Source: Veillonellaceae bacterium (GTDB lineage Bacteria; Bacillota; Negativicutes; Veillonellales; Negativicoccaceae). Taken from it: a DNA stretch of 37,019 bases. Under the pieces are notes generated by a model that had not been told where the DNA came from, ran no database searches, and was given only the letters and a program-made list of their open reading frames with translations. Positions 8,363-15,594 of this stretch are shown here, piece by piece. Both the position numbers and the translations under genes were made by a program. Positions within the stretch are counted from its first letter, which is position 1, and every line of letters starts with the position of its first letter. The DNA lies in assembly GCA_022771805.1 (NCBI GenBank), contig JALELM010000018.1, positions 1 to 37,019 of the forward strand, given 5' to 3'.

Positions 8363-10402
8363 ATGAGTATACAGACAACGGATGCGGTTACGGTAATCAA
8401 AGGAATCGGCCCGCGAGCGGCGCAGCGTCTGGCCGTGCTCGGGATTCGGACGGTGGGAGATCTGCTGATGCATTTTCCGCGCAGTTACATCGACTATTCC
8501 GTGCAGCTGCCTCTGCGTGAATTGCGCGAGGGAATGGATGTTACCGTCGGCGGGCGGATCCTTGCGGTGGAGGAGCGCCGCCCGCGGGCGCGTCTTTCCA
8601 TTCTTACGGTGACGATCAGCGACGATACCGGTCTCGCCGAGCTGGTGTATTTCAATCAGCCGTTTCGGCGCAAACTCTTTCGTGAGGGAGAGCGAGTGGT
8701 CGCGTCCGGCAAGGTGAAGGCGGGGTATCGGCAATGGCAAATCGCCAATGCGGAAGTGGAGTTCCCTGCGCCCGGGGAGCGGGTGCGCGGTCGTATCCGG
8801 CCGGTGTATCCCTTGACGGAAGGGTTGCGGGCCGGCGCGCTGGAGGAATGGATCTCCCGGGCATTGACGGCGACGGCAGACCCGGACGACACGTTGCCGG
8901 CGGAATTGCGGGCAAGGCTCGGCTTTTCCTCCCGGCGAGAGTCGCTGCGGAAAATTCATCGGCCGACGACGGTGGCGGAGTATGAAGCGGCGCGGCATGA
9001 GCTGGCTTTTGACGAGTTGTTTTATTTACAGCTCGGCGTGCTGCGCTTGCGTCGGCGACGGGAACAGGGTACGCAGGGCATCAAGTGTGCGCCGAACGGG
9101 GAGTTGACGGCGGCCTTGTATCGTCGCTTGCCGTATCGGTTGACGGGAGATCAATTGCGGGCGTTGCAGGATATTTGTGACGATATGGAAAGCCTGCTGC
9201 CGATGCGCCGGCTGTTGCAGGGCGATGTCGGCTCGGGCAAGACGGCCGTGGCGGCACTGGCGATGGCAAAGGCCGTGGAAAACGGCTACCAGGCCGTGTT
9301 GATGGCGCCGACGGAAATCCTTGCCAAGCAGCACGAAGAAAGTCTGCGGGAGATGTTCGCCGGTCTGCCGGTGCGGATCGATTGCCTGACGGGACGGCTG
9401 CCGGCGGCGGAACGCGAGGAAGTGTTGGCGCGTCTGCGCCGCCATGAAACGGATCTTGTCGTCGGTACGCACGCACTGTTCGGTGACGAGGTCGAGCTGC
9501 CCGCGCTCGGTCTGGTCATTACGGACGAGCAGCATCGTTTCGGCGTGCGGCAGCGAATGGCGCTGGAACAAAAAGGCCAACTGCCGCATACACTGGTCAT
9601 GACGGCGACACCGATCCCGCGCACCTTGACGCTGTCCGTGTACGGCGATTTGGATGTGTCGCTGATCCGGGAAATGCCGCCGGGGCGAAAACCGGTCGGC
9701 ACGTATGTCGCAAGGCGTGCGAAAATGCCGAAAATACTGCGTTTTATCGAGCAGGAAATGGCCAAGGGGCAGCGGGTATACTTGGTGTGCCCGCTTGTTG
9801 AAGAAAGCGAAAAAATGGATTTGAAGGCGGCGCAGCAGGTGTATGCCGAGATGAGCGAGCACTTTGCCGCCTATGGTGCGGGGCTGGTCTACGGCAGCAT
9901 GGCGAGCGCGGCGAAAGAGGCCGTCATGGCGGATTTTGCGAGCGGCCGCATCCGTCTGCTGGTAGCTACCAGTGTCGTGGAGGTCGGCGTGAATGTGCCG
10001 GAGGCTACCGTGATGCTGATCGACAGTGCGGAGCGTTTCGGCTTGTCGCAGCTGCATCAGCTGCGCGGGCGCGTCGGGCGCGGTACGGCGCAATCATACT
10101 GCATCCTGATCAGCGATACCCGCAACGAGGTTGCCCTGCAACGGTTGCACTATATGGAAACGATTCAGGACGGGTTTTTACTGGCGGAGAAGGATTTGTT
10201 GTTGCGCGGCAGCGGGGAACTCTTCGGTTATCGTCAACACGGTCTGCCGGATCTGCACATAGCGGACTTGGTTCGAGATCTGCCGCTGCTGGTGGAGGCG
10301 CGCCGGGAAGCGGCGCATTATGTTGACAGTCCGGCGCCGTACTTACAAAAAGAACTCGAACGCCGTTTCGGCGCCGAGTTCTTGGAATTGCTGTATCATT
10401 GA
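8363..10402 (+). CDS. recG: ATP-dependent DNA helicase RecG
   Basis: This 679-aa superfamily 2 helicase reverses stalled replication forks and processes branched DNA. The N-terminal wedge/OB domain (about 1-230) begins VIKGIGPRAAQRLAVLGI and carries PRSYIDYS. The Walker A GDVGSGKT is at 287-294 and the DEQH box is in ITDEQHRFGVRQR. Motif III is TATPIPRTL, motifs V/VI include ATSVVEVGVNVPEATVM and QLRGRVGRG, and the RecG C-terminal hook is present. The length is normal. AAAGGAG precedes ATG 8363 by 5 nt. The gene is monocistronic and converges with the acyl-CoA ligase gene; the two coding ends overlap by 7 nt. Confidence 0.97.
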   Translation: MSIQTTDAVTVIKGIGPRAAQRLAVLGIRTVGDLLMHFPRSYIDYSVQLPLRELREGMDVTVGGRILAVEERRPRARLSILTVTISDDTGLAELVYFNQPFRRKLFREGERVVASGKVKAGYRQWQIANAEVEFPAPGERVRGRIRPVYPLTEGLRAGALEEWISRALTATADPDDTLPAELRARLGFSSRRESLRKIHRPTTVAEYEAARHELAFDELFYLQLGVLRLRRRREQGTQGIKCAPNGELTAALYRRLPYRLTGDQLRALQDICDDMESLLPMRRLLQGDVGSGKTAVAALAMAKAVENGYQAVLMAPTEILAKQHEESLREMFAGLPVRIDCLTGRLPAAEREEVLARLRRHETDLVVGTHALFGDEVELPALGLVITDEQHRFGVRQRMALEQKGQLPHTLVMTATPIPRTLTLSVYGDLDVSLIREMPPGRKPVGTYVARRAKMPKILRFIEQEMAKGQRVYLVCPLVEESEKMDLKAAQQVYAEMSEHFAAYGAGLVYGSMASAAKEAVMADFASGRIRLLVATSVVEVGVNVPEATVMLIDSAERFGLSQLHQLRGRVGRGTAQSYCILISDTRNEVALQRLHYMETIQDGFLLAEKDLLLRGSGELFGYRQHGLPDLHIADLVRDLPLLVEARREAAHYVDSPAPYLQKELERRFGAEFLELLYH

Positions 10403-11673
10403 TCCCCTGCGGGGGATTTTTTCTTGCCGTATTCTTCCCGCCAACGACGTTGCAGTTGCGGCAGGTCGATTTTGGAGCAGGAATTGAGGGGCAGAGCGGC
10501 ATATCGCAGCCAGTACCGCGGCCGTTCGAGCGGGGTCAGTCCGGCGGTTGCCGAGGCCGGGGACGGTTGCATCGCCGGGTCTGCCGGTACGTAGGCGGCG
10601 GCCGGCACTTCGCCGCGCAGGGGATCGGGGACGGCGAATACCGCTACATCCGCAAAGACGGGGAGGCGGCGCAGCGCCGCTTCGATCGCGGGAACGGAAA
10701 GTGTTTTCCCGCCGCAGTTGATGACGGCCTCGCTGCGACCGCTGAAGCGGAGCATGCCGGTGGCGGTCCATTCGCCGCGGTCGCCGATATCCGCGCGCGG
10801 TTGTGTGCCGATCACGCCGTAGGGCGTGGTCACGAGAATGCGGTCACCCTCGATTGCGACCGTGACGGAAGGAAACGGACGACCGACAATGCCCAGCTCC
10901 CGTTCCCATTCGGCGAGGCTGCAATGCGTAATATGACTGAGTTCGCCGGCACCGTAGTACAGGGTGCAACGGGCATTCGGGAACAGGCGGTGCAGCGCCG
11001 CGGCAAGTCCCGGATCCAAGGCCTGCGAGCCAGTGAAAAGAGAACGGATCTGCGGCGCCGGTTCGTTAAGCAGTACCCACTGGCGAAGTTTTACGGGCAG
11101 GAGGTAGAGCGTATCCGCTCCTTCCGAGCGAATCGCACGCAGCCAGGCGCGCGGATGATGGCGGCGGACGGTGACTCCCGCCCCACCGGCAAAAAAGACG
11201 GCGGTCAGGGCATTCAGATTGCCGGTGAAGCCGAGCGAGCCGTGGAAGAACAGGCGCGAATCGGAACGGATGCCGAAAACGGCATTCTGTTCGGGGTAGC
11301 CGTCCGTCCAGGAGGTTTCCGTGCGCCAAAGCAATTTCGGTTTGCCGGTCGTACCCGAGGAGAGAATACCGAAATCGGCAGCGGGAGGCGGTTCGCTTGC
11401 GGCAAGCGCGGCGCAGTCCGCCTCACTCATGTCGGGATGACAGATAATCGGTCGCCGTCCGACTGCCAGACCGGCAAGAAAACGGAGCCATTGCTCCGTA
11501 ACGGAGGTGGTGCGTATCGGCAGCGGTTGGCGATTGTTTGCCAGTGTGGCGGCCGTTTCGTCAACGGCCTGCAACAGTTCGGCATAGTTGTACCGCACCT
11601 CATCCGCCGACCAGGCCGGCGCTGTGGGGGCGTTTGCCGCCCGGGTGCGTAAATGCTCGTAGAAAATACTCAC
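10396..11673 (-). CDS. AMP-forming acyl-CoA ligase (YhfT-like)
   Basis: This 425-aa member of the ANL superfamily activates a carboxylic acid with ATP to an acyl-AMP and then an acyl-CoA. The phosphate-binding loop SSGTTGKPK is at 105-113, the YYGAGELSHI motif corresponds to the A5 YGxxE region, the A7/A8 region reads GDRGEW followed by LRFSGRSEAVINCGGKTLS, and the likely catalytic Lys401 is in SCSKIDLPQL. It is shorter than typical family members (about 500 aa). The start is GTG 11673, overlapping the thiolase stop as GTGA and preceded by GGAG. In B. subtilis the BirA-controlled yhfUTS operon pairs BioY with a ligase and a thiolase, and this gene fits that role. Its substrate is unknown. Confidence 0.85.
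   Translation of the reverse strand: MSIFYEHLRTRAANAPTAPAWSADEVRYNYAELLQAVDETAATLANNRQPLPIRTTSVTEQWLRFLAGLAVGRRPIICHPDMSEADCAALAASEPPPAADFGILSSGTTGKPKLLWRTETSWTDGYPEQNAVFGIRSDSRLFFHGSLGFTGNLNALTAVFFAGGAGVTVRRHHPRAWLRAIRSEGADTLYLLPVKLRQWVLLNEPAPQIRSLFTGSQALDPGLAAALHRLFPNARCTLYYGAGELSHITHCSLAEWERELGIVGRPFPSVTVAIEGDRILVTTPYGVIGTQPRADIGDRGEWTATGMLRFSGRSEAVINCGGKTLSVPAIEAALRRLPVFADVAVFAVPDPLRGEVPAAAYVPADPAMQPSPASATAGLTPLERPRYWLRYAALPLNSCSKIDLPQLQRRWREEYGKKKSPAGDQ
10401..10422 (+). terminator. Rho-independent terminator of recG
   Basis: GATCCCC/GGGGGATT stem with a TGC loop and six T. It lies inside the last codons of the convergent ligase gene on the minus strand, where it encodes the C-terminal KKKSPAGDQ tail. 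Confidence 0.88.
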
Positions 11674-12800
11674 GGCAGACGCTCCACGATGATCGCCATC
11701 CCCGTGCCGCCGGCACCGGCAATGGCGGCCAAACCGTAGCGGCCTTCGATCTGTTGCAGACGAGCCAGCAGATGGGTGAGAATGATTGCCCCGGAAGCGC
11801 CGTAGGGATGACCGTAGGCGAGAGCGCCGCCGAGAGCGTTGTAACGATCGACGAGCGTCGGATAGTGCCGGGCAAAGAGCACGTCGATTACGGCGAAGGC
11901 TTCGTTCCATTCCACGGCCGCCATATCGGTCATCTGCAGGCCGGCTTGCCGCAAAGCGATCTCGCTGACATGGCGGACACCGAGCGGCGAAAGCAGCGGC
12001 GCCGCAGCACCGGCGGCGAGCGTGACTATGCGCGCTATCGGCTTGCGATCCGACCGCCGGGCGGTTTCGCCGTCCGCCAGCGCGACGTAGGCGGTGCCGT
12101 CATGGATCAGACAGGCGTTGCCGGCCGTGATTTGGCTGCCTTCGCCAAGCAGCGCCGGCATGCGCGCCAGCAATTTGGCGGAAAGACGCGGGCGCAAGCC
12201 CTCATCCTGCGCGAGTTCGGGGAAGGGGAGAATGTAGTCTTGCAGCACGCCGTCGCCCGCAGCCTGTACGGCGCGCCGGTGACTGGCGAGAGCGGCCGCA
12301 TCCAATTCCTCGCGGGTGGCACCGCAGTGCTCGACGGCGCGTTGGGCACCGCGCAGCATGGCTTGCGGATCGTTTTCCGTCGGCGAGAACTGGGCGACCG
12401 TGTAGCTGCCTTGGCGGGAATCCGCCGCCGCATAGGTACGCAGGGGCTGCAGCGAGGCACTTTCCGCACCGCCGGCAAGCACCGTGCGGGCGAGACCTGC
12501 CGAAATGCGTGCCGCCCCGTCGGCTATAGCCGCCAGAGCGGAAGCACATTGCATATCGATTGTCCAGGCGGGTACCTGTTCGCCGAGACGGCTGTAGAGC
12601 AGGCTCAGGCGGGTGATATTGCCGCCGGGTCCTACGGCATTGCCGCCGATAACGGCATCGATTCCCGGCGTGCCGAGGCGCTCGTGCAATGCGTCCAGGA
12701 GCGGCGCGGTCAGCCGTTCCGGTCCGAGAGTCGCCAAGCATCCGCCCCTCGCACCGATCGGGGAACGCAGGGCATCGAGGATGTATACTTCGTTATTCAT
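11670..12800 (-). CDS. Thiolase-family protein (YhfS-like) lacking the second catalytic Cys
   Basis: This 376-aa thiolase-fold protein belongs to the family of acetyl-CoA C-acetyltransferases, which make or split beta-ketoacyl-CoA. The nucleophile Cys85 is in DMQCASALAAI, the NEAFA motif is present and His331 lies in GGALAYGHPYGASGA. At the place of the usual C-terminal CxGGGxG, however, the sequence reads AIAGAGGTGMA, so the base cysteine is replaced by alanine (Ala361). A complete Claisen condensation or thiolysis may therefore be impaired, or the enzyme may use only the acyl-transfer half-reaction. It starts with ATG 12800, overlapping the bioY stop as ATGA, and overlaps the ligase by 4 nt. 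It is a member of the BirA-controlled operon. Confidence 0.85.
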   Translation of the reverse strand: MNNEVYILDALRSPIGARGGCLATLGPERLTAPLLDALHERLGTPGIDAVIGGNAVGPGGNITRLSLLYSRLGEQVPAWTIDMQCASALAAIADGAARISAGLARTVLAGGAESASLQPLRTYAAADSRQGSYTVAQFSPTENDPQAMLRGAQRAVEHCGATREELDAAALASHRRAVQAAGDGVLQDYILPFPELAQDEGLRPRLSAKLLARMPALLGEGSQITAGNACLIHDGTAYVALADGETARRSDRKPIARIVTLAAGAAAPLLSPLGVRHVSEIALRQAGLQMTDMAAVEWNEAFAVIDVLFARHYPTLVDRYNALGGALAYGHPYGASGAIILTHLLARLQQIEGRYGLAAIAGAGGTGMAIIVERLP

Positions 12801-13315
12801 GCGGGAACCTTGAGGGCAATGTAAGCGGCGACGATGACTTTCAGAATATCACCGGGGATAAAGGGAAGCGCAGCACCGGCGATGGCCGGCCACAGACCGA
12901 TATCCAATACGAGCATCATTCCGGCAACCCCACCGATATAGGTCAGCGGTATGCCGATGAGCGTGCCGACCAGGACATAGCGCCAAAAAGAACGAGCGGA
13001 TCCTTTGAACAGACTGACCAAGGGATAGGCGACACAAAAAGCGAAGATAAAACCGCCCGTCGGGCCGAATAATTTTCCCAAGCCGCCGACGCCGCCGCTG
13101 AAAACAGGCAAGCCCGCCGCCCCGCAAAGCAGGTAGACGAGGGAAACGATGAGCATCTGTTTCGGGGTCAGCAAAAACGCGGCCAGATTAAAGACGAGCG
13201 TTGTCAGCGTGATCATTGCCACGGTAAAAGGCAAGGGGATGGCGATATACGCCGAGACGAAAAGCAGTGCTACCAAGAGTGCCATTTTAGTTAAATCTTT
13301 GGCTCGAATTTCCAT
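12797..13315 (-). CDS. bioY: Biotin ECF transporter S component BioY
   Basis: This 172-aa, six-helix membrane protein binds biotin and imports it, alone or with a shared ECF module. The family's hallmarks are visible: an N-terminal MALLVALLFVSAYIAIPLPFTVAMITLTTLVFNLAAFLLTPKQ, the YLLCGAAGLPVFSGGVGGLGKLFGPTGGFIFAF block with conserved GGxxxLxGPTGGY-like residues and a C-terminal LPFIPGDILKVIVAAYIALKV. Start ATG 13315 overlaps the stop codon of the upstream hot-dog gene as TGATG. It is the second gene of an operon preceded by a BirA operator, which is the expected control for biotin uptake. No biotin synthesis genes (bioA, B, D, F, W) are in the window. Confidence 0.95.
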   Translation of the reverse strand: MEIRAKDLTKMALLVALLFVSAYIAIPLPFTVAMITLTTLVFNLAAFLLTPKQMLIVSLVYLLCGAAGLPVFSGGVGGLGKLFGPTGGFIFAFCVAYPLVSLFKGSARSFWRYVLVGTLIGIPLTYIGGVAGMMLVLDIGLWPAIAGAALPFIPGDILKVIVAAYIALKVPA

Positions 13316-13830
13316 CAGTTCAATTCCTCCTCATACGTCAGATCAAATACCGGCCCGCTTGCGGTATAACCGCGGATATGCCCGGGTGCGGAGAGACGGT
13401 AGACGTCCTCATTTGCGTATGTCGGCCGGTGAAAGCGTATAGCCGCGCGCCGGACAGGCAAATTGCCCAGACAGGCGCGAAAAATCTGGTAGCCGGGTAC
13501 CAGCGGACGCTCGGTTCGGTGCAGGGGATTGCGGTCGCCGAGTCGCTCGACAAAGGAACGCACTTCCTGCGGCGAAAAGCGAAAGGCATATGTCGCCCCG
13601 GGCGGAATCTTTGCCGGCAGTGTTGTATCCCGTTGCTTTTCCTGCACGGGCAGGAGCGACATTTCCAGTCGGCCGGACGAGTCGCAGGCGGTGAGCCGGA
13701 TCAGTTGCCGCCGCACCTGCACATCCACCTGCGGCGCGGCCGGTATGTGCTCGAATACCAGGCGGCCGATGACGGTACGCCGGGCTTCGGGCACGTCGGC
13801 ATTCACTAAAGCGCGATATAATGAATCCAT
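13315..13830 (-). CDS. MaoC/hot-dog hydratase-like protein
   Basis: This 171-aa protein has a C-terminal half (about 82-171) resembling a MaoC-type hot-dog domain: FRFSPQEVRSFVERLGDRNPLHR followed by LVPGYQIF and later AAIRFHRPTYANEDVY. It keeps the hydratase motif D-x-N-P-x-H (Asp99, Asn101, His104), which in R-specific enoyl-CoA hydratases adds water across a trans-2-enoyl-CoA. The N-terminal half is not recognised and may be a second, degenerate hot-dog half. The ATG at 13830 is chosen for AAAGGAG 6 nt upstream. It is the first gene of the BirA-controlled operon, so its chemistry is probably linked to the thiolase and ligase that follow. Substrate and activity are unknown. Confidence 0.65.
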   Translation of the reverse strand: MDSLYRALVNADVPEARRTVIGRLVFEHIPAAPQVDVQVRRQLIRLTACDSSGRLEMSLLPVQEKQRDTTLPAKIPPGATYAFRFSPQEVRSFVERLGDRNPLHRTERPLVPGYQIFRACLGNLPVRRAAIRFHRPTYANEDVYRLSAPGHIRGYTASGPVFDLTYEEELN

Positions 13831-13854
13831 CGGAACTCCTTTCATATGAGTATG

Positions 13855-13883
13855 ATTATAAAAGAAAGCGGGCGTGTAGTCAA
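13855..13883 (-). promoter_or_regulatory. Consensus promoter of the BirA-controlled operon
   Basis: On the minus strand, TTGACT (13883-13878), 17 bp and TATAAT (13860-13855), 25 nt from the first start codon. The -35 hexamer lies inside one half-site of the BirA operator, so repressor binding would block RNA polymerase directly. Confidence 0.88.
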
Positions 13884-13910
13884 CCGGCAAGCGAGACCGG
13901 TGGTTAACAA
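13877..13910 (-). promoter_or_regulatory. BirA (biotin repressor) operator
   Basis: TAGTCAACC (13877-13885), 16 bp, GGTTAACAA (13902-13910). The right half matches the known BirA consensus GTTAACC/GGTTAAC fully and the left half at 7 of 9 positions; the spacing is within the known 14-16 bp. It overlaps the -35 box of the bioY operon and lies upstream of the divergent kinase promoter. Confidence 0.85.
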
Positions 13911-13929
13911 AAGAAAGCGGAGCGAAACA

Positions 13930-13938
13930 TGCTATAAT
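13930..13938 (+). promoter_or_regulatory. Extended -10 promoter of the nucleoside kinase gene
   Basis: TGCTATAAT, 24 nt before the start codon, with no clear -35. The BirA operator ends 19 bp upstream of it, so the divergent gene could be affected by BirA. Confidence 0.6.
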
Positions 13939-13962
13939 GGGTGCAATGAGGGGAGGAACGAT

Positions 13963-15594
13963 ATGTATACAATACGTTGCGGGGAAAGCGAACTGCAGGT
14001 TCGACCGGGTACGACGATAGCGGATTTGGCAACGCAGATCGATATGTCGCAGGCGATTCTCACGCGCTGGCGGGGAGAACTTGTCGCTTGGGATACGGAA
14101 ATTACGGCCGACGGGGAATTGGAGCTGCTGTCCTTGCAGACGAAGGAAGGGAACTTGGCATACCAGCGCGGACTGATCCTGTTGCTGGCGACGGCGGTAC
14201 AGGAGATGTATCCCGCGGGTCGGGTGTTTATCGAGCATTCACTCGGGCGGGCGCTGTACGGCCGGATTGATGCGGGGCATCCGCTCACCCATCATGATAT
14301 TGAAGATGTGGAGGAGCATATGCGGGAGATTGTGCGCCAATGCCGCCCGTTTGTGCACTTGGCGAACAATCGCCGGGTGGCTCTCAATATCCTGGAAAAT
14401 GAGGGGCGCATCGCCGCCGCCCGCCGCATGGAGGAAATTCGCACCGAGCGGGTGGATCTGTATGCCTGCGGCTCGTTTTACGACTACTACTTCGGACTGC
14501 TGCCGGCACATACCGGTGTGCTGACGACATTTGACTTGCATTCGTATGCGCCGGGATTTTTGCTGCGGTTTCCGGATGAGTTTTCCGGTACGGAGATTCC
14601 CGAGTATGTGGAATTGCGACGGTTTGCGCGCGTGTTCTTCGAAGCGACCGATTGGAGCGAGCGGATCGGTTGCCGCTATGTGAGTGATCTGAACGCCGCG
14701 ATCCGAAACGGCAGAATCGGCCATATCATTGCGATGGCGGAGGCGCTGTACGAGAAGAACTTGGCTCGCATCGCCGACCTGGTGGCGGGCAGCAATCCGG
14801 GCATTCGGCTGATTACGCTGGCGGGACCGTCCTCGGCGGGGAAAACGACCACGATGCAGCGCCTGCGCGTGCAGTTGGAAGTCAACGGTTTGTCGACGGT
14901 GCTGATTTCGTTGGACAATTATTACCGCAATCGCAGTGAGCGGCAGATTTTCACGAGTGACGGTGAGGTCGATTACGAGTCGGTGGATGCGCTGGATCTG
15001 AACTTGCTTGAAGTGCAGCTGATGAGCTTACTGGCGGGCGAACCGGTACGTCTGGCGCGCTTCGATTTTGTCAAAGGCGAGCGTTATTTCGATGCGGAGC
15101 CGACCGTCTTGAAAGCGGAACAGCTGCTCGTCATGGAAGGCCTGCACGCGCTGAATCCGAAAGTATCGCGCGGCGTGCCGGCATATCAATGCCTGCATAT
15201 CTACATCAGCGCACTGACACAGCTCACCGTGAGCGCCCGCAATCGTATTTCGACGACCGATGCGCGTCTTTTGCGGCGGTTGGTACGCGATCAGCGTGAT
15301 CGTGCGCATGATGCCGCGGACACCTTGGCAATGTGGAGCAGCGTACGCAAAGGCGAGGAATCCTACATTTTCCCGTTCCAGGAACAGGCGGACATCATTT
15401 TCAACACGGCACTCATCTATGAAATTCCCGTGCTGAAGACATTGGCGCAGCCGTTGCTGGCGGCAATCGAGCCGGGGCATCCCGCCTATTCGCAAGCGCA
15501 ACGCCTGCTTCGCTTCCTGGATCTGTTTGAAGCGCTCGATCCGGAAATGGTTCCGGGCAATTCGCTGCTGCGTGAATTTATCGGCAAAAAATAA
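13963..15594 (+). CDS. TGS/ThrRS-like domain fused to a uridine-kinase-like P-loop kinase
   Basis: This 543-aa protein has the architecture of the clostridial/thermotogal nucleoside kinases. The N-terminal about 60 residues resemble a TGS domain (YTIRCGESELQVRPGTTIADLA). Residues of about 70-220 resemble the threonyl-tRNA synthetase second additional/editing domain (FIEHSLGRALYG, GHPLTHHDIEDVEEHMREIV). The C-terminal half is a uridine-kinase-type P-loop kinase with GPSSAGKTTT at 288-297, LISLDNYYRN and VMEGLHALNP. It probably phosphorylates a nucleoside with ATP or GTP; the substrate is not readable. GGGGAGG lies 6 nt before ATG 13963. It is monocistronic, with its own promoter and terminator, and divergent from the BirA-controlled operon. 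Confidence 0.85.
   Translation: MYTIRCGESELQVRPGTTIADLATQIDMSQAILTRWRGELVAWDTEITADGELELLSLQTKEGNLAYQRGLILLLATAVQEMYPAGRVFIEHSLGRALYGRIDAGHPLTHHDIEDVEEHMREIVRQCRPFVHLANNRRVALNILENEGRIAAARRMEEIRTERVDLYACGSFYDYYFGLLPAHTGVLTTFDLHSYAPGFLLRFPDEFSGTEIPEYVELRRFARVFFEATDWSERIGCRYVSDLNAAIRNGRIGHIIAMAEALYEKNLARIADLVAGSNPGIRLITLAGPSSAGKTTTMQRLRVQLEVNGLSTVLISLDNYYRNRSERQIFTSDGEVDYESVDALDLNLLEVQLMSLLAGEPVRLARFDFVKGERYFDAEPTVLKAEQLLVMEGLHALNPKVSRGVPAYQCLHIYISALTQLTVSARNRISTTDARLLRRLVRDQRDRAHDAADTLAMWSSVRKGEESYIFPFQEQADIIFNTALIYEIPVLKTLAQPLLAAIEPGHPAYSQAQRLLRFLDLFEALDPEMVPGNSLLREFIGKK

Follow-up and report, generated by a model that had tools for sequence, protein, structure and literature searches.

A BirA-type operon joining the biotin transporter component BioY to a hotdog dehydratase, a YhfS-type thiolase and an acyl-CoA ligase: a candidate module for coping with biotin scarcity

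What does a bacterium gain from transcribing the gene of a biotin importer together with the genes of three enzymes that handle acyl-CoA? The question is raised by an operon in the window analysed here, a stretch of 37,019 nucleotides which is contig 11 in a draft genome of 1.44 Mb, 95% complete and assembled in 20 contigs, from a family of the Negativicutes. The operon lies on the minus strand and comprises four overlapping genes, encoding in order a hotdog-fold protein of 171 aa (gene 1; 13315..13830), BioY, the S component of an ECF transporter, of 172 aa (12797..13315), a thiolase-fold condensing enzyme of the YhfS type of 376 aa (11670..12800; PF00108/PF02803) and an AMP-forming acyl-CoA ligase of 425 aa with a GTG start (10396..11673; PF00501/PF13193). 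As the initial annotation had described, the genes are coupled by overlapping stop and start codons on this strand, namely TGATG between the hotdog gene and bioY, ATGA between bioY and the thiolase gene, and GTGA between the thiolase and ligase genes. The promoter it had proposed can likewise be read directly from the sequence at 13855..13883, again on the minus strand, with TTGACT (13883-13878) and TATAAT (13860-13855) separated by 17 bp.

Upstream of gene 1, this promoter is associated with a palindrome that had been interpreted as an operator of the biotin repressor BirA. Members of the BirA regulon are recognized by a palindrome of the form TTGTTAACC-N(about 14-16)-GGTTAACAA at the promoter, and such a site is present here: when up to three mismatches to TTGTTAACC-N16-GGTTAACAA were allowed, the only match in the 37 kb was found at 13877-13910, with two mismatches and 0.02 matches expected in the window. 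On the minus strand it reads TTGTTAACC-N16-GGTTGACTA, and the -35 box sits inside its downstream half-site. The genome also encodes a BirA protein with an N-terminal DNA-binding domain (L003; HTH_11 at 8e-16, followed by BPL_LplA_LipB and BPL_C). Among relatives, the best site has at most four mismatches in 22 of 39 cluster loci, compared with 3.4% of random stretches of equal length, and it is mostly located 45-57 bp 5' of the first gene; six loci of a family which we label Paenibacillus-like by inference (family f50; G548, G713, G672, G666, G590 and G705) have operators with one or two mismatches, and in L182-L184 birA itself is divergent to the operon. No operator is visible at the Mitsuokella loci L042 and L046, nor in the Paenibacillus-like G141, G738 and G680. 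The conserved operator and the HTH_11-containing BirA together argue for control of the operon by BirA, which would make its transcription dependent on biotin in vivo.

The function of gene 1 is the least obvious from database models, since neither a Pfam nor an NCBIfam family, including the MaoC family PF01575, matches the window protein above cut-off; its homologue L131 scores 26.5 against a cut-off of 27 for PF01575. The profile of the hotdog family matches HTD2 (7.5e-6) and PhaJ (2.4e-5), and a structure model (pLDDT 94.8) finds HtdX as its best fold match, with a Z score of 15.4 over residues 1-169. Profile, model and fold search thus agree with the earlier description of a hydratase-like hotdog protein, and gene 1 is predicted to encode a compact double-hotdog (R)-3-hydroxyacyl-thioester dehydratase or hydratase of the MaoC/HtdX kind. 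The protein combines the hotdog fold with the Asp and His of the D-x-N-P-x-H motif of MaoC and hydratase 2 (putative catalytic residues D99 and H104), and each of the 92 copies located beside a thiolase retains Asp, Asn and His in the corresponding alignment columns. In five genomes of genus g10, probably owing to a single event, the His is replaced by Tyr, and neither a thiolase nor a ligase gene is found nearby. While HtdX and MaoC double-hotdogs share the fold over its whole length and the D-x-N-x-x-H motif, they are about 250 aa long rather than 171 aa, the window protein is without a Pfam match, and, unlike them, it adjoins BioY or a YhfS-type thiolase in all examined loci but one.

The remaining three genes belong to recognizable families. 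BioY matches PF02632 at 2e-31 (109 bits, cut-off 25) and 4dve at an E value of 8e-8, and its alignment contains the PGDxxK stretch of the L. lactis protein, which is missing from a second BioY encoded next to bioD-bioA elsewhere in the genome. The ligase contains an AMP-binding domain (1e-21) and the associated C-terminal domain (3e-7); its best equivalog is PRK07638 (YhfT) at 81.8 bits, far below the cut-off of 518 bits, and judged by these matches it is best described as a distant relative of YhfT. The thiolase (Thiolase_N 4e-33, Thiolase_C 1e-25) has PRK06690 (YhfS) as its best equivalog, at 232.7 bits and below the 498-bit cut-off. It retains C85, N299 and H331, and the second catalytic Cys, which canonical acetyl-CoA acyltransferases have in addition to the first, is replaced by Ala361. 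This residue is absent from 43 of 43 YhfS-type sequences and from none of 28 other thiolases, and the 43 sequences, which include the Bacillus-type YhfS and with it the window enzyme, form one side of a branch with 100/100 support in a tree whose root is not fixed. In ordinary thiolases the second Cys is the base that acts on the acetyl-CoA carbon. Because it is missing, ordinary condensation with, or thiolysis to, acetyl-CoA is doubtful for these enzymes, and a decarboxylating extender would be a possible partner.

Relatives of gene 1 occur in 41 of 120 related genomes. Counting the window, BioY adjoins the hotdog gene in 38 of 39 loci and the thiolase is present in 32 of 39. A scan of genome contigs retained 80 named loci, from Veillonella, Selenomonas, Mitsuokella, Anaerovibrio, Acidaminococcus, Clostridium, Clostridioides and others, some of which have the thiolase without an adjacent hotdog or BioY gene. 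The cluster and its gene order are thus kept across the Negativicutes and beyond, with recurrent reductions: rumen Selenomonadaceae often have hotdog, thiolase and ligase genes without an adjacent BioY, and some genomes of the Veillonella family keep the hotdog-BioY pair alone. Among the clustered neighbours in the 108 cluster loci compared, no reductase recurs in the Negativicutes.

The complete module is found in the Paenibacillus-like family. In L177, L180 and L182 the operon reads BioY-ligase-thiolase-hotA-hotB-SDR-EcfA-EcfA'-EcfT-FabK-like, and other loci of the family have the complete set with small differences. Within one such operon (G141), TIGR01830 FabG is the top model for the SDR and TIGR03151 FabK for the NMO-type protein, and hotB scores best with MaoC/HadB models. 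The FabK-like reductase is often, though not always, present (G682 and G680 are without it); a YhhQ-type gene replaces BioY in G141 and G738, BioY is not in place in G680, G672 has neither BioY nor Ecf genes in the operon, and G705 is without hotdogs and SDR. In L185-L187, a more distant group, ligase, thiolase, SDR and Ecf genes occur together with an amidohydrolase-like gene, and BioY is absent. The complete set identifies the missing activities: a dehydratase, a ketoreductase and an enoyl reductase. The earlier observation that the window holds neither a ketoreductase nor biotin synthesis genes is correct within its limits, but both exist beyond them, the ketoreductase in the cluster of this other bacterial family and the synthesis genes, bioD-bioA and bioB, elsewhere in the same genome.

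The distribution of biotin synthesis genes among the carriers is uneven. Beside its bioA, bioD and bioB, the window's genome contains no bioF or bioW above cut-off, and the same holds for three further members of its family (G000-G003), of which G002 is a single-contig assembly; both genes are also absent from G011, G063, G088 and G108. Most carriers of the Veillonella type hold bioW and bioF. The initial annotation had suggested looking for co-occurrence with the bio genes, and many carriers have bioW and bioF; the overlap with bioW is loose (32 of 41 hotdog carriers versus 43 of 79 others among the 120 relatives, a comparison confounded by kinship), and the window's own family has neither gene. 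Furthermore, 14 Paenibacillus-like genomes with a YhfS-type thiolase and most of the module, or of close relatives of the module, have no bioB above cut-off, and in ten of them (G141, G548, G552, G590, G658, G668, G672, G680, G694 and G705) bioF matches are only weak and aminotransferase-like. The whole operon was read in a subset of these carrier loci; G548, G590 and G672 combine the chemistry and a good BirA-like operator with the absence of bioB and bioF above cut-off. These absences depend on the cut-offs of the models used, and the assemblies, some of them drafts, are 95-100% complete. BioB was called with TIGR00433, as ThiH-type proteins share the BATS domain and counts of that domain alone overstate bioB, and matches to the bioF model of 1e-104 to 1e-125 that stayed under the curated cut-off, some of which may be glycine C-acetyltransferases, were left uncounted.

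These observations uphold the earlier suggestion that biotin uptake is linked to an acyl-CoA route, all functions being predicted from sequence and from modelled structure. The reading we favour, though tentatively, is that of a BirA-repressed biotin-scarcity operon which couples BioY-mediated uptake to reductive C2 elongation of a carboxylic acid activated with CoA. Under biotin limitation, BirA would dissociate from the operator that overlaps the -35 box, and transcription of the operon would follow; BioY and the ECF module would import biotin or a biotin-like vitamer, and the ligase would convert the imported acid to its CoA thioester. The YhfS-type enzyme would then add two carbons, for which malonyl-CoA or malonyl-ACP may be the donor; a malonyl-type extender is proposed because the acetyl-CoA-activating residue of ordinary thiolases is missing. 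FabG/FabK-type reductases, which in Negativicutes would need to be supplied from elsewhere in the genome and in the Paenibacillus-like family are encoded in the operon, would complete the cycle together with the hotdog dehydratase. The direction of the cycle, the extender unit and the substrate are thus proposed from gene content and residues: the reductive partners, the R-type dehydratase and the missing second Cys speak for building rather than degrading, and BirA control and the coupling to BioY speak for a substrate related to biotin. Probably, the enzyme set serves to repair or salvage damaged biotin, or to spare biotin, rather than to provide a pimeloyl building block.

The most economical substrate would be biotin with a shortened side chain, such as the beta-oxidation product bisnorbiotin, which would be restored to biotin. 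Bisnorbiotin is a human biotin metabolite and accounts for 13-23% of total urinary biotin (PMC9106636). It is conceivable, at a lower confidence than the general scheme, that bisnorbiotin-type vitamers are imported and their valeryl chain rebuilt, under the control of BirA, in one FAS-like round of C2 elongation on CoA thioesters, bacteria unable to make biotin included, and that YhfS/YhfT of Bacillus and Staphylococcus take part in the same process. Such side-chain repair fits both the building direction and the biotin link, suits auxotrophs and is our best guess. The literature searched contained nothing linking these genes to bisnorbiotin salvage, and the Veillonella-type carriers with bioW and bioF count against salvage, as a role in synthesis is possible there.

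Several loci sit uneasily with the general scheme and count against it: the clusters of G141, G738 and G680 without BioY or operator, the operator-less Mitsuokella loci, the BioY-less clusters of rumen Selenomonadaceae, the Veillonella-family genomes that keep the hotdog-BioY pair only, and the want of a recurrent reductase in Negativicutes.

The main rival to side-chain repair is a biotin-sparing use of lipids, in which, with biotin and acetyl-CoA carboxylase short, the ligase would activate exogenous fatty acids, thiolase, dehydratase and host reductases would elongate or adapt them, and BioY would merely be a co-regulated neighbour. In its favour, the yhfS-yhfT genes that BirA controls in S. 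aureus carry the annotation of a fatty acid ligase operon, and biotin limitation in that species affects Acc and membrane fluidity; the FabG/FabK/HadAB-like partners are enzymes of fatty acid type, and an adjacent BioY is missing in some clusters. We nevertheless regard this explanation as rather unlikely, since the clade-wide loss of the second Cys makes a carboxylase-free elongation with acetyl-CoA improbable and the tight coupling to BioY, in the Paenibacillus-like family also to EcfAA'T, hints at the imported compound as the substrate. The missing Cys, together with the retained acyl-accepting Cys, Asn and His and the Negativicutes clusters without reductases, would also suit a mere activation with CoA, of biotin or of some other acid, for example for trapping or signalling, with the thiolase acting as an acyltransferase only. 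This seems improbable, as it leaves both the conserved dehydratase active site and the FabG/FabK-like genes of the Paenibacillus-like operons unexplained.

Two further roles had been put forward by the initial annotation, and neither finds general support. In the supply of a pimeloyl-type precursor, glutaryl-CoA or a similar acid would be elongated to pimeloyl-CoA for BioF, resembling the BioZ route to pimeloyl-ACP, in which a condensing enzyme of biotin metabolism likewise extends a short acid by C2, BioZ acting on glutaryl-CoA and malonyl-ACP. The chemistry fits and many carriers have bioW and bioF, but BioZ is a relative of FabH that serves BioF, and many carriers of the window-type cluster are without bioF. 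A pimeloyl-CoA pathway presupposes BioF in the same genome, which is missing from G000-G003 as well as from G548, G590 and G672. Because the latter and similar genomes have neither bioB nor bioF, and the window's genome neither bioF nor bioW, pimeloyl supply is ruled out as the general role; it could survive only in bioF carriers, where, moreover, the BioW of Veillonella-type genomes already makes pimeloyl-CoA from free pimelate. We consider it quite improbable. The degradation of the biotin side chain by beta-oxidation is even harder to defend and, in our estimate, very improbable: ligase, hydratase and thiolase are activities of this type, yet no acyl-CoA dehydrogenase family appears among the recurrent neighbours in the 108 loci, the partners are reductive, the dehydratase fold is R-specific, the thiolase has lost its second Cys, the module occurs in biotin auxotrophs, and a catabolic pathway would not be expected to be repressed at high biotin.

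The link between BirA, BioY and YhfS/YhfT is already known. In Bacillus yhfU(bioY)-yhfT-yhfS and in Staphylococcus yhfS-yhfT, BirA control, BioY, ligase and thiolase are likewise associated, and BirA control of yhfS-yhfT was demonstrated experimentally in S. aureus in a study that gives no role for the enzymes (PMC6391492). YhfS of the Bacillus-like G424 also lacks the second Cys; unlike the window operon, G424 has no dehydratase gene, and the window thiolase and ligase stay under the YhfS/YhfT equivalog cut-offs (233/498 and 82/518 bits). Use of vitamers when biotin is lacking is likewise known from biotin auxotrophs, which are reported to use desthiobiotin (PMC9561691). The salvage step in that case is BioB; here the side chain, and not the sulfur ring, would be repaired. 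Literature searches, whether they paired BioY with a ligase or thiolase or looked for pimeloyl together with glutaryl-CoA and a thiolase, returned nothing on the operon. New are the dehydratase in the BirA/BioY/YhfST setting, the complete cycle in the module and its occurrence in biotin auxotrophs. The BirA-controlled yhfS-yhfT genes occur in model Firmicutes, and the literature searched gave no established role for them. With pimelate supply removed as the general answer and the missing activities named by the complete set, a vague association is replaced by a specific test with few candidate acids, which bears on how gut and soil bacteria may compete for biotin and its breakdown products.

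The intergenic region carrying the BirA-like operator of the hotdog-BioY-thiolase-ligase operon is shared with a divergent PRK/uridine-kinase-type gene (window 13846-15594, plus strand), whose start likely lies near 13963. The hotdog gene also stands alone, with its Asp/Asn/His triad intact, at L051:6383-6958 (genome G061), where BioY, thiolase and ligase are all absent nearby. Negativicutes-like hotdog-thiolase-ligase genes were furthermore seen on L207 and L220, contigs that carry the labels Streptococcus vestibularis and Streptococcus sp., respectively, and are suspected to be contamination.

At loci L185, L186 and L187, genes for an SDR, a ligase, a thiolase in which the second Cys is missing and an amidohydrolase-like protein are located beside EcfA-EcfA'-EcfT, and BioY is absent; these may form a sister module acting on another compound. 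Three BATS-domain genes (337-366 aa) within ~3 kb, found at G012:C2:200843-204120, G015:C1:1838468-1840925 and G030:C141:16996-20076, are possibly tandem bioB copies.

A small membrane protein of ~160 aa immediately 5' of bioW-bioF (L138:8856-9356, L142:5236-5715 and the cut copy L140:29-334) is a candidate pimelate transporter; L138 and L142 each show BirA-like sites upstream of it, and the L138 copy had no Pfam or NCBIfam match. The window's own genome, which is without bioF and bioW, encodes another BioY, with bioD and bioA next in line (L035:7754-10393, contig 17), behind a BirA-like site with 4 mismatches. Because PDFILC replaces PGDxxK in this BioY, its cargo may be a precursor, for example KAPA.
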